This document shows, piece by piece, positions 31,878 to 46,052 of a DNA stretch of 64,000 nucleotides. The position numbers and the translations under genes are program-made. Source of the stretch: Brevinema andersonii. Lineage in GTDB: Bacteria; Spirochaetota; Brevinematia; Brevinematales; Brevinemataceae. The notes beneath the pieces are model-generated. The model saw nothing but the letters and a program-made list of their open reading frames with translations, was not told where the DNA came from and made no database searches. The stretch is from assembly GCF_900112165.1 (NCBI RefSeq), contig NZ_FOKY01000001.1, positions 372,001 to 436,000 on the forward strand, written 5' to 3'. How positions within the stretch are numbered: position 1 is the first letter of the stretch; every line of letters begins with the position of its first letter.

Positions 31878-32794
31878 TAGGAATTATTGTTTTCACAGTT
31901 TTTCTGATTTTTGTTGTACTCTCAACTCAAACTCTTTTATTTCATCCTAGGCCGAGAAAAGATATTTTAACAACTTCATATTCTTCTAATAGAGATTTTT
32001 GGCTGAAAAACGGAAACTCAAAACTTTTGATTATGTTGCACGGGATGTATTCGTCCCCGGCAACTTTTGAACACTTTGCCCAATTGGCTCACCGCCAGCA
32101 TTGGGATGTATATGCCCCAGTTCTTCCCAATTCGTCTAATTCTGTTGATGAGCTTAAAAATCAACCGGCATTTTTATGGGAAGATAGTTTGCGTGTGGCA
32201 TTCCAAAAAATTATTGTCAGTACCGAAAACTATAAAGATATTGTTTTATGCGGACATTCGCAAGGTGGATCTATTGCACTCACTCTTGCTCCTAGTTTGG
32301 TGTTTTTGAAGGCAGTTGCTGTGGTTGCTGCACCGATGTATCTTATCGGTCCTCAGCATTCGTGGTTGCGTAATATTGGTATTTTTCTTTCAGGGTTTCT
32401 TTATTTTCTGCTGCCTAAACATGGCATGGATACACCAGTTCGATATCAAAAAGAACGAGCATTTGTGGAGGATACATTTGGTTCGGAAGGTTTTTACTAT
32501 GGATTGACGTTACATTCAATGAATCTGGGATTGGCAAAAACCAGAAAAAGATTAAATCTGATCAAACAACCTTTGTTTCTGGCCTATGAAAAAGGGGACC
32601 GTATTACAAATTTTAATGATTTTCTTCTGATCAAACGCAAAGTGGCATCATCTTTTATTCGGGAGATTGTTTTTGATACTCCTCGTTCTGAAGACCCTTA
32701 TTCAAAACGCCATAAATTGTTTAGTTATAAGCCTATAAAAGATAAGCTTTTTTATGAATTAGAGGCTTTTTTAAGGGAAATCGATGAGTTTTAA
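31874..32794 (+). CDS. Alpha/beta hydrolase, membrane anchored
   Basis: 306 aa. One N-terminal hydrophobic helix (residues 1-22), then an alpha/beta-hydrolase fold: oxyanion region LLIMLHGMYSSP, nucleophile elbow CGHSQGG (Ser in GHSQG), and a late acid/His region with RHKLF that may hold the catalytic His. Resembles carboxylesterase/monoacylglycerol lipase-type enzymes. The substrate is unknown. ATGA overlap with dprA, and its end overlaps the glycosylase gene by 11 bases. Confidence 0.8.
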   Translation: MIGIIVFTVFLIFVVLSTQTLLFHPRPRKDILTTSYSSNRDFWLKNGNSKLLIMLHGMYSSPATFEHFAQLAHRQHWDVYAPVLPNSSNSVDELKNQPAFLWEDSLRVAFQKIIVSTENYKDIVLCGHSQGGSIALTLAPSLVFLKAVAVVAAPMYLIGPQHSWLRNIGIFLSGFLYFLLPKHGMDTPVRYQKERAFVEDTFGSEGFYYGLTLHSMNLGLAKTRKRLNLIKQPLFLAYEKGDRITNFNDFLLIKRKVASSFIREIVFDTPRSEDPYSKRHKLFSYKPIKDKLFYELEAFLREIDEF

Positions 32795-43140: not shown

Positions 43141-43175
43141 AAAACACCTCCCAACCAAATGGGAGGTGTTTTTTA
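43138..43175. terminator. Bidirectional terminator between pth and fliN
   Basis: Twelve perfect base pairs (43141-43152 with 43161-43172, loop AACCAAAT), T run on both exits. Confidence 0.92.
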
Positions 43176-44201
43176 AACGCCACCTTTTCCATGCAGGTTT
43201 TCTCTATCAAAAATACGTTCCATTGGTGTTACTACTTTTGTAACACGGACGGAGAAGTTTTCGTCGATAATAACAACTTCACCTAGCGCGATTAATTTAT
43301 CATTTACCAAAACATCGACAGGTTCACCGGCAAGTTTTTCGAGTTCGATGATTGACCCTGCACCAAGATTCAAAATATCTTTAATAGTCATACGAGTTCT
43401 TCCTAATTCTACAGTAACACGCATCGGCACATCTAGAAGCAAAGCTAAGTTATCCAGTGGCTCAATATTGTTGAGAGGCGCAAATTGCTGAAACTGTGCT
43501 ACCTGAAGTGGTACGGTTCCATTTTGGTTGGAATTGTTGGTATTTTGTTGATTATTTTGTGCAGCGTTTGGTTTAGGCAGTAACAGATCAGTGATGTTTT
43601 TTGCAGTTTTTATGGGTGTTACAATGTAAAACGGAATTGTTCTTCCATTCATATTAAATACAAATGAAAGACGCACCAATATTCCGATTGCCGTGATCAG
43701 CGACTCACCGTTTGTGTATGATTGTGCTTTTCCTGGTGTCGTGGAAATTTCGTTTTTAAGCTGCTCCGTAAGAATCCGTATATCAGAACCTAACGCATTA
43801 TTTAACACTTCAGAGAAAGCATCGATAATTTCCTCAGAAACTTCGGTATTTTCCTGATTCATCATGGCGCCAGTCACTTGAAGAACCGTGCCTGACGGAG
43901 CAAAAATCGTCCAATCGCCGGTAACAATGCCATTTAAGGAATTTTTCGAACCAATAATCTGGTCTGTCAAGTCCTCGGTAATTTTTGCGGACGAGCCAGT
44001 AGTAAATGTGGCCTGTTCCAATGTGACAGTGGTGCCAGTTAATTCGGATAGCTGGGCAGCCCGTGCCGATCCCAAAGCCGTACAAAGCTTAGAAAGTGCA
44101 AGTTCTTCGGCATTGCTGAAAGAGTTGTTTGCAGTGCTTTCGATGGGTGTGCCTTGGAGCAGTGCATCGAGTTCGTCTTGTGATAATTGTGAATCGCTCA
44201 T
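43173..44201 (-). CDS. fliY: Flagellar motor switch protein FliN/FliY
   Basis: C-ring protein that controls rotation direction. 342 aa, three parts: an N-terminal LSQDELDALLQG segment (residues 6-17) like the CheY-P-binding peptide of FliM and FliY; a CheC-like middle (about 30-205); and a C-terminal FliN/SpoA domain (about 250-335: LLLDVPMRVTVELGRTRM, LGAGSIIELEKLAGEPVDV). In Bacillus FliY the CheC part is a CheY-P phosphatase; its catalytic residues were not confirmed here. AGGAGGG precedes the ATG. Downstream of the structured RNA at 44284-44549. Confidence 0.9.
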   Translation of the reverse strand: MSDSQLSQDELDALLQGTPIESTANNSFSNAEELALSKLCTALGSARAAQLSELTGTTVTLEQATFTTGSSAKITEDLTDQIIGSKNSLNGIVTGDWTIFAPSGTVLQVTGAMMNQENTEVSEEIIDAFSEVLNNALGSDIRILTEQLKNEISTTPGKAQSYTNGESLITAIGILVRLSFVFNMNGRTIPFYIVTPIKTAKNITDLLLPKPNAAQNNQQNTNNSNQNGTVPLQVAQFQQFAPLNNIEPLDNLALLLDVPMRVTVELGRTRMTIKDILNLGAGSIIELEKLAGEPVDVLVNDKLIALGEVVIIDENFSVRVTKVVTPMERIFDRENLHGKGGV

Positions 44202-44283: not shown

Positions 44284-44549
44284 TTAAAAAACACCCCGTT
44301 GCAAACATGCAGCGGGGTGTCCCATGAACACCCAAGGAAACCTATGAAGAAGAGTGTTAACCTTGCAGCGCACATACCCAAAAAGCCTGTAGGGTTATGT
44401 ACGTTGCTACATCTCTACAACTAAACTACACTCTTCTTGCACATGCTCGTCCTCGAAAACGTACAAACCGCTACAGGCGATTATTTCGTCCGAAATACGA
44501 GAATGTGTAGGCTTTTATATAGCAGTGCAGAAATCGGTAGAAATGTAGC
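44284..44549 (-). ncRNA. Pseudoknotted non-coding RNA of unknown class, about 266 nt
   Basis: A minus-strand transcription unit with a perfect promoter (44556-44584), predicted +1 at 44549 and a strong terminator at 44291-44320, but no plausible protein. It contains long complementary segments: a (44537-44549, at the very 5' end) with a' (44406-44418), 13 pairs with one G-U; b (44471-44478) with b' (44385-44392), 8 perfect pairs; c (44428-44438) with c' (44347-44357), 11 perfect pairs. Local hairpins: 44497-44507 with 44440-44450 (one mismatch), enclosing b; and 44372-44379 with 44392-44400, whose loop holds b'. Pairs a-a' and b-b' cross c-c', so the RNA is pseudoknotted. It lacks the RNase P, tmRNA T-loop and SRP motifs. 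It could be a trans-acting RNA or an attenuating leader of fliY, 83 bases downstream. Confidence 0.7.
44285..44320 (-). terminator. Terminator of the pseudoknotted RNA
   Basis: ACACCCCG (44291-44298) with CGGGGTGT (44313-44320), extended by TGCA/TGCA and closed by AACA on the plus strand; five T follow on the minus strand. One of the strongest hairpins in the window. Confidence 0.92.
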
Positions 44550-44555
44550 ATAATA

Positions 44556-44584
44556 ATTATACACTGTAAAATATTTTATGTCAA
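44556..44584 (-). promoter_or_regulatory. Perfect consensus promoter of the pseudoknotted RNA
   Basis: Minus strand TTGACA (44579-44584), 17 bases, TATAAT (44556-44561): exact consensus, pointing to high expression. The +1 falls on the first base of helix a. Confidence 0.85.
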
Positions 44585-44628: not shown

Positions 44629-44657
44629 TTGACATTTTTTTTTGATTTTTCTATAAT
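44629..44657 (+). promoter_or_regulatory. Perfect consensus promoter of the GIY-YIG gene
   Basis: TTGACA (44629-44634), 17 bases, TATAAT (44652-44657), divergent from the RNA promoter 45 bases away. Confidence 0.82.
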
Positions 44658-44685
44658 AGTTTATTATATTTTGAAGAGATTATTC

Positions 44686-44937
44686 ATGTGGTTTGTTTAT
44701 ATGATCGAGTGCGAGAATGGCAGTTTATACACTGGGATAGCAAAGGATCCTCAAAAACGTTTTGTTGTACACGCTACTGGCAAAGGTGCGCGTTATACGC
44801 GTATTAATCGGCCACTTCGTATTGTTTATACGGAACCATGCAATGATATCAGTGCGGCGCTTAAGCGTGAACGCATGATTAAATCGCTACCTCGTAGTAG
44901 AAAATTGAAATTGATTGGGGAAAAACACATTTTATAA
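44686..44937 (+). CDS. GIY-YIG endonuclease-domain protein (UPF0213/YhbQ-like)
   Basis: 83 aa from the ATG at 44686 (the longer frame starts on the -35 box). The single GIY-YIG domain shows VYMIECENGSLYTGIAKDPQKRF (in two parts, 4-26), RPLRIVYTE and the basic C-terminus AALKRERMIKSLPRSRK. Stand-alone proteins of this family are small nucleases of unclear role, perhaps in DNA repair. Confidence 0.9.
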   Translation: MWFVYMIECENGSLYTGIAKDPQKRFVVHATGKGARYTRINRPLRIVYTEPCNDISAALKRERMIKSLPRSRKLKLIGEKHIL

Positions 44938-44954: not shown

Positions 44955-45479
44955 ATGAAACGGTTTGTTTTATTTTTAGCATTAGGTGTGTCAATGTTAG
45001 GAGTTTCAAGTAGGGCTCGAGCTGCACAAAATTATAGTGTTGGCAATTTGCTAGTGGGCATTGGTATCGGTGGTGGTAATGCTAATTATACTTATGGTGT
45101 GAACGGTTTTGTTTTCAACCCTTCGGTTGAAATTATTTTTGGAGCATGGGATGCTAACGGCATTGGCTTGGCGTTAGGCGGGACTGTAAACTCAAGTATT
45201 TTGTTTGGTGCTGCGGTTACAGGATCTTTGACAGTTAATCCGACGTTCCATGTTACTATGGCAAATCGTCTGGACTGGTATGTCGGGCTAGGATTTGGAC
45301 AAACACTTCAAGGGAGTTGGGTACGTTATGGTGCTGCTTTCCAGACAGGCTTTAATATTTTGACTCTTAACTGGCTTTTGGTTAATATTGGTTTAGAGCT
45401 TCAAGGTACGCAATTCTTTGGTGTTGCGGGTGTGAAATTCCGATTTGGAAACTTTGCAAAACCTAGACCAACTCGATAA
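44955..45479 (+). CDS. Small outer-membrane beta-barrel-like protein
   Basis: 174 aa; signal peptide ending near ARAA (residue 24), then alternating Gly/aromatic strands typical of an eight-stranded barrel (NLLVGIGIGGG, IGLALGGTVNSSILFG, RLDWYVGLGFGQTL, FGVAGVKFRFG). AGGAGG before the ATG. I recognise no family; 17 bases after the GIY-YIG gene. Confidence 0.75.
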   Translation: MKRFVLFLALGVSMLGVSSRARAAQNYSVGNLLVGIGIGGGNANYTYGVNGFVFNPSVEIIFGAWDANGIGLALGGTVNSSILFGAAVTGSLTVNPTFHVTMANRLDWYVGLGFGQTLQGSWVRYGAAFQTGFNILTLNWLLVNIGLELQGTQFFGVAGVKFRFGNFAKPRPTR

Positions 45480-45507
45480 AAAATGCCCTATTTTGGGGCT
45501 TTTTTCT
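45478..45507. terminator. Terminator between two convergent beta-barrel genes
   Basis: A-tract, GCCC (45485-45488), loop, GGGC (45496-45499), T-tract: works in both directions. Confidence 0.75.
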
Positions 45508-46052
45508 TAGAAAGTCAGCAGTGCACCTATAGTGAACAAGATACCACCCTGGTCTGACTGCTTTGAAGAAAGGTGCTTAATACCTATGTTATATTTGAGT
45601 GCAGCCCTGAGGCCTACACCAATATGCGGGTTAATTTTATAAATGCTGTTGAAGCCCAAACCAACTCCGTAATATAATACAGTATCGGTGTAACCAGTTT
45701 CGCTGTTAAGGAAATAAGGGTTGAAGTAGCCGAAAAGATCCATACCCAAATCCCAGCCAGATCTTTTGTATGCAGCGTTCATAAAGCGGTAGCCTATTCC
45801 TGCACCCATATCCATACCCCAGCCTAAGTTGCCGGAAGATGCGCCGCGTGTGAAGACGAATTTGCCAAGCAGATTGTAGTAAAAATAGATACGTGTCGGT
45901 GTAGACCCGATGATGCCGACGGATAAATTATCGGCTTGAGAGTCGAGAGGGACGGCAGGATTGCTGAAAGATTCCCACCCTAAGAACACTCCCGTAAAAC
46001 CATATACTCCTGCAGGTGTGAGCAGGAGAAAAATAACGAACAAATGTTTCAT
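45507..46052 (-). CDS. Small outer-membrane beta-barrel-like protein
   Basis: 181 aa; signal peptide MKHLFVIFLLLTPAGVYG, then amphipathic strands (YYNLLGKFVFTRG, GWGMDMGAGIGYRF, WDLGMDLFGYF, YYGVGLGFNSI, IGVGLRAALKYN) and a C-terminal phenylalanine (FTIGALLTF), the usual signal for the BAM complex. Convergent with the barrel at 44955. Function unknown. Confidence 0.75.
   Translation of the reverse strand: MKHLFVIFLLLTPAGVYGFTGVFLGWESFSNPAVPLDSQADNLSVGIIGSTPTRIYFYYNLLGKFVFTRGASSGNLGWGMDMGAGIGYRFMNAAYKRSGWDLGMDLFGYFNPYFLNSETGYTDTVLYYGVGLGFNSIYKINPHIGVGLRAALKYNIGIKHLSSKQSDQGGILFTIGALLTF

Follow-up and report, generated by a model that had tools for sequence, protein, structure and literature searches.

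The window, a 64,000-nucleotide stretch of the Brevinema andersonii genome, carries between a fliY-like gene and a divergent GIY-YIG gene a segment (44549-44284, minus strand) whose sequence is organised like a transcription unit for a predicted structured RNA, a member of a multicopy family. The features of this locus are as follows.

44629..44937, plus strand: GIY-YIG gene, the divergent flanking gene upstream of the RNA
44556..44584, minus strand: sigma-70 promoter TTGACA-17-TATAAT of the RNA, 12/12 consensus match
44284..44549, minus strand: structured RNA, predicted transcript from P1 to the terminator, 266 nt
44315..44333, minus strand: possible anti-terminator hairpin GGGUGUUCAUGGGACACCC, -10.5 kcal/mol, overlapping the terminator 5' arm (putative role)
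44284..44323, minus strand: terminator hairpin and U run, stem ACACCCCGCUGC...GCAACGGGGUGU and then UUUUUU, -20.4 kcal/mol
43173..44201, minus strand: fliY-like gene with a FliMN_C domain (Pfam PF01052, 90 bits), downstream of the RNA

The promoter consists of TTGACA (44584-44579), a 17-nt spacer and TATAAT (44561-44556), and the terminator stem lies within 44323-44288, with the T run directly after it. A perfect promoter, a strong terminator 266 bases on and no credible reading frame between them had been claimed in a preliminary description of this DNA, and all three were confirmed: the longest ORF listed within 44549-44284 has 41 amino acids, and no gene lies inside. The MFE of the segment is -97 kcal/mol, against -70 +/- 5.2 kcal/mol for 200 dinucleotide shuffles (z = -5.2), none of which folded equally well. 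Two small outer-membrane-type protein genes lie near the RNA locus (44955-45479 and 45507-46052), and in the relative G001 more outer-membrane-type sequence is seemingly present between fliY and the GIY-YIG gene.

Searching the B. andersonii genome at the DNA level led to a second site with a 28-nt match. The second full copy, at L002 (contig C27), has its own promoter (TTGACA-17-TACAAT) with P1 at equal distance; its core is the same as that of the window copy, and its arms are altered yet still complementary. A covariance model built from these two copies (R1) detected two more in B. andersonii (contigs C28 and C4) and others in genomes of the same family, and a model of six sequences (R2) detected many further copies. 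The window RNA itself scores 112.7 bits with R2, a model that contains the window copy. The last model (R3) gave 10 hits in B. andersonii (G000) and, in three related Brevinema-type MAGs, 2 (G001), 12 (G002) and 26 (G003), counts that are approximate because G002 and G003 are fragmentary MAGs; E-values from these home-made models are rough. Besides its two hits, G001 holds one antisense echo. Four near-identical contig-end hits in B. andersonii are best read as two assembly-split loci (a G/A variant), and a weak extra copy (L069:3371) brings the total in this genome to about nine loci; L032 and L037 are genuine family copies. Judged from these sequence matches, the family numbers about fifty copies across the four genomes. 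A promoter matching the consensus at 11/12 or better lies upstream of 39 of 43 copies, as against 2% of shuffles. Tandem partial core copies lacking a P1 of their own were also seen at L092 (2389-2753, minus strand), where the partial copy precedes a secreted-protein gene, and at L096 (305-544, plus strand).

Among the genomes searched, the family is restricted to Brevinemataceae, one small spirochaete family: only 4 of 345 genomes were positive in the covariance search, the 341 other Spirochaetota genomes yielding no member. Homologues had been expected upstream of fliY in related spirochaetes. This expectation failed, both in those 341 genomes and in G001, where fliY and its neighbours are syntenic and the RNA is absent. 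Phage and plasmid collections held no similar DNA. In viral contigs the exact pattern GCGGTTTGTACGTTTTC matched four times, never followed by d' and b', and a degenerate core pattern matched once, without model support; in genome contigs the degenerate pattern matched 13 times, with a strong model score only for three Brevinema MAG contigs. Narrow, poorly sampled lineages can evidently harbour large RNA families missed by existing libraries.

The pairing elements of the window copy are listed below.

44537..44549, minus strand: a, 5' strand of P1, beginning at the predicted +1 and pairing with a'
44406..44418, minus strand: a', 3' strand of P1, pairing with a
44524..44530, minus strand: P2 5' strand CUGCACU (MFE structure, window copy only)
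44426..44432, minus strand: P2 3' strand AGUGUAG (MFE structure, window copy only)
44497..44501, minus strand: P3 5' strand CUCGU (covariation across copies)
44446..44450, minus strand: P3 3' strand ACGAG (covariation across copies)
44466..44482, minus strand: P4 hairpin AAUCGC-CUGUA-GCGGUU with b in its loop (covariation across copies)
44458..44465, minus strand: d, UGUACGUU, 5' strand of the pseudoknot helix, 8 bp with d'
44398..44405, minus strand: d', AACGUACA, directly 3' of P1, 8 bp with d
44471..44476, minus strand: b, CUGUAG, the P4 loop and first stem base, pairing with b'
44387..44392, minus strand: b', CUACAG, pairing with b
44370..44402, minus strand: alternative hairpin g (GUACAUAACCC / GGGUAUGUGC) of the MFE structure, absorbing d', with b' in its loop
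44428..44438, minus strand: c, 11 bp with c', copy-specific
44347..44357, minus strand: c', 11 bp with c, copy-specific

P1 was examined in 42 copies by matching the DNA just 5' of d' to the upstream DNA. The median own-copy pairing score was 19.7, compared with 8.8 for arms combined across copies, and 41 of the 42 copies lay above the 95th percentile of this cross-copy control. The P1 arm comes directly after the TTGACA-17-TATAAT promoter in almost every copy, so that the placement of helix a at the predicted first transcribed base, originally remarked for the window RNA, holds for nearly the whole family. P3 was paired in 99.5% of alignment cells (41 distinct rows), with two-sided changes in all five of its pairs, and P4 in 82.8%, with two-sided changes in two pairs. 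The alignment model includes P3 and P4, but neither d-d' nor b-b', both of which RNAalifold predicted unprompted from six copies. The pseudoknot helix d-d' is among the best-conserved pairings (91.7% of cells paired, compensatory change in four pairs), and b-b', previously put forward as a contact between loops, was paired in 89.4% of cells with two-sided changes in three pairs. Whole-structure covariation measures beat 500 of 500 shuffles and all slid controls (41 distinct rows). Compensatory changes between copies thus uphold P1, P3, d-d' and b-b'.

Since d' adjoins P1, P1 may stack on d-d'. The equivalent of b' sits in the terminator hairpin in copies C and D, and hairpins similar to g occur in some copies of the sister genus. 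The core sequence is kept within a genus, and few unpaired positions are invariant across genera.

The three complementary pairs a-a', b-b' and c-c' noted at the outset are present in the window copy, in an arrangement slightly different from the one described, in which two of them cross the third: their strands follow in the order a, b, c, a', b', c', and all three cross one another. The argument that such pairs exceed chance was vindicated for a-a' and b-b', which show compensatory changes in paralogues, and not for c-c', which does not recur among copies (median own-copy pairing 9.1 versus 8.8 in the cross-copy control). In the window copy c-c' falls between the 95th and 99th percentiles of that control. 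Its own pairing being equal to the control across the family, we rejected c-c' as a conserved helix and leave it outside the fold in which it had been placed.

The d-d' pseudoknot, the multicopy family and the frequent position before accessory genes all go beyond the preliminary description. The next gene downstream in the sister genus lies on the RNA strand in 16 of 25 copies and on the opposite strand in the other nine. A simple hydropathy rule predicts secretion for the products of 12 of the 16 same-strand downstream genes and of 42 of 306 genes in the background (Fisher p = 1.7e-7), with less enrichment among upstream genes (7/24) and opposite-strand downstream genes (2/9). Accessory genes downstream in this genus mostly encode predicted secreted proteins or lipoproteins. 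No homologue in G001 was found for 29 of 43 neighbours, as against 76 of 306 background genes (p = 6.5e-8), and for 13 of 14 same-strand downstream genes; the G001 site search covered about 94% of the genome. The p-values for neighbouring genes are approximate because the neighbours include paralogues and a tandem copy. When 20 same-strand downstream genes were tested for promoters of their own, two reached 11/12 and the remainder 10/12 or less.

A recurrent hairpin, C[TC]CATA(G)...TATG[AG]G, is found downstream of the core in 10 of 32 regions of the sister genus, where 0.0037 are expected per 350 nt, an enrichment of about 90-fold. This platform hairpin usually precedes a U run; the 3' arm serves as the ribosome site at L097 and L100 and lies immediately next to the start codon at L101 and L084. 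The 5' arm, T5, repeats the b-loop sequence CUCAUAG, so that, as the sequences read, b' can pair with either b or T5. A second choice of partners concerns the 5' arm of P3, which in the sister genus pairs fully with its local partner in 23 of 32 copies (14% in the cross control) and fully with a distant partner also in 23 of 32. Copies with both partners comprise 14 different arm sequences, and the retention of two mutually exclusive helices despite sequence change is the mark of a switch. The sequences of the sister genus therefore contain an expression platform with mutually exclusive pairings. The window copy has neither the CUCAUAG platform nor a full double partner for P3. The two-state switch suggested for the window RNA is accordingly borne out in part, by P3 covariation in the sister genus but not in the window copy, and read-through control of fliY by this copy, from behind its own strong terminator, is only possible; at this site the RNA may be a leader or may act in trans. 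The family offers some fifty naturally occurring versions, with helices that covary and partners that exclude each other, for direct tests of fold and switch.

The fold, the platform, the gene linkage and the double partner of P3 lead us to favour a reading of the family as a riboswitch-like 5' leader that also exists as free-standing copies, a reading to which we give about an even chance. When the pseudoknotted domain is formed, the P4 loop b would hold b', leaving the downstream hairpin T5:T3 free to form and thereby to terminate transcription or cover the ribosome site. When the domain is not formed, b' would pair with T5 and the downstream gene would be read; in many copies the gene so controlled would be one for an accessory exported protein. 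Copies with a terminator only, one of them in a prophage, would act alone or be relics. Fold, platform and gene linkage are steps seen in the sequences, from which we infer the exchange of b' and any signal response. In about a third of the copies the next downstream gene lies on the opposite strand, and these copies cannot be simple leaders. Also counting against a leader is copy D, since proS downstream of it has its own promoter-like sequence: a similar TTGCAT-17-TATAAT lies upstream of proS in B. andersonii and in G001, where proS and its upstream gene are syntenic and the copy D site is empty. With such a sequence before proS in both genomes, proS can probably be transcribed without copy D.

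More tentatively, the family may represent a new class of regulatory RNA with two states, limited to Brevinemataceae, amplified to up to 26 copies per genome and travelling with accessory genes. It would place whole sets of acquired exported proteins under one RNA-sensed signal, with P3 exchanging strands and b' switching between the pseudoknot and the hairpin at the terminator or ribosome site. If there were such a common switch, it would show a spirochaete lineage bringing acquired surface or secreted proteins under one regulatory signal.

Some copies have no same-strand gene to control. In B. andersonii the next gene downstream of copies B and C is on the opposite strand, and copy C lies antisense in a prophage tail region, flanked by a tail gene and the tape measure gene. 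Such copies, together with the promoter and terminator that most copies possess, would suit a free-standing structured RNA acting in trans as a scaffold, an RNA-protein particle or a regulator, a doubtful though possible alternative in which the linkage to genes would reflect landing sites and the terminator would merely end the RNA. The conserved genes fliY and proS, which stand behind copies here and are transcribed in the relative without the RNA, also agree with it, and b and b' are common to the copies of one genome, so that contacts between copies are possible. It explains less well why many same-strand downstream genes of the sister genus have no other good promoter and why a ribosome-site hairpin replaces the terminator in several copies; moreover, no consistent partner protein was found. 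(The contig L070 1-9025, G000:C28, carries a prophage tail and baseplate region whose tape-measure gene is broken into two frames.)

The riboswitch-like leader has a further competitor in a non-autonomous mobile repeat, a unit of promoter and RNA that would spread with prophages or integrase regions and whose fold would mainly serve its own spread or maintenance. We consider this unlikely. Copy number varies from 2 to 26 among congeners, accessory neighbours are far above background, and B. andersonii contains two nearly identical copies of a repeat some 370 bp long; family copies lie next to tyrosine recombinases (L090, L102), a Type ISP restriction enzyme (L086), GmrSD (L074) and prophage tail genes. 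A DNA repeat, however, needs no RNA-level covariation accompanied by a promoter and a terminator, and neither defined ends nor target duplications were seen. Reverse transcriptase and TnpB are absent from the four genomes, and B. andersonii has just two tyrosine recombinases, on stretches away from the copies, for which reason we rejected them as a general mobiliser in this genome. Long (GA)n / (TC)n dinucleotide runs near gene fragments of B. andersonii, at L002 383-418 and L019 1562-1604, were noted separately as possible phase-variable sites.

The window RNA had been described as unrecognised and as distinct from RNase P RNA, tmRNA and SRP RNA, and the Rfam check agrees. No family reached its gathering score in the window and, tRNAs excepted, none did so at 20 other copy-bearing loci. 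At relaxed thresholds the terminator hairpin was matched by trpB, on the opposite strand (31.6 bits, cut-off 59), and by His_leader (RF00514; 25.2 bits, gathering score 49). Neither ARAGORN nor Rfam returned a tmRNA match for the window RNA, and Rfam returned none to 6S RNA or SRP RNA. RNase P RNA is likewise excluded, since that of B. andersonii lies on another contig (G000:C14:2034-2376, 227 bits, RF00010). Strong divergence from a known family (6S, tmRNA, SRP, RNase P, His leader or one of the described riboswitches), to which those two weak sub-threshold matches could point, is a very improbable explanation given the lack of gathering-score matches, the RNase P RNA found elsewhere and the many copies per genome, which argue against a housekeeping RNA and, with the pseudoknot, against a divergent 6S RNA in particular.

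By its sequence and predicted fold this is a new RNA family with no Rfam entry, closest in kind to the riboswitches, and a search of titles and the first parts of abstracts returned no description of such an RNA. It shares with riboswitches a structured, pseudoknotted 5' region followed by a hairpin acting as terminator or masking the ribosome site, the competing pairings b:b', b':T5 and T5:T3, and, in many copies, an adjacent same-strand gene without its own promoter. It differs from them in matching no Rfam class, in having few invariant unpaired bases, unlike most aptamers, in its promoter-proximal P1 of 12-24 bp, in the many copies without a gene to control and in its confinement to one bacterial family. 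GOLLD, ROOL, OLE and raiA are large, ornate structured RNAs with pseudoknots or kissing loops, some of them on mobile elements. No Rfam match to these was found here (only Rfam models were compared), and the Brevinema core, of about 120-165 nt, is multicopy and often directly before genes. TnpB/IscB omega RNAs, retron RNAs and group II intron RNAs are likewise structured RNAs that spread with mobile elements, but the four host genomes have no TnpB-type (PF07282) and no reverse transcriptase (PF00078) gene. Retron and group II intron RNAs were ruled out by the absence of reverse transcriptase; we also abandoned the ribozyme and omega RNA readings, as neither gene is present and a promoter fixes the 5' end. 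Multicopy pseudoknotted RNA families tied to genes for accessory exported proteins are unusual.

Two other repeated elements were seen downstream of the core. Hairpins such as AGAGATATAGGAGCGAAAGCGACTAATAGCTCTTACTC recur after the b' site in several copies of the sister genus, directly behind the RNA at L074, L081, L087, L078, L088 and L099. A second repeated hairpin, with TGGRATTGGS in a terminator-like stem, occurs at L074, L075, L076, L077, L079 and L081, that is, 90-250 nt downstream of the core in 6 of 32 copies of the sister genus, against a background of five matches in 381 kb (both strands). It is possibly a second RNA element, and its sole match in the window lies at 32526 (plus strand).
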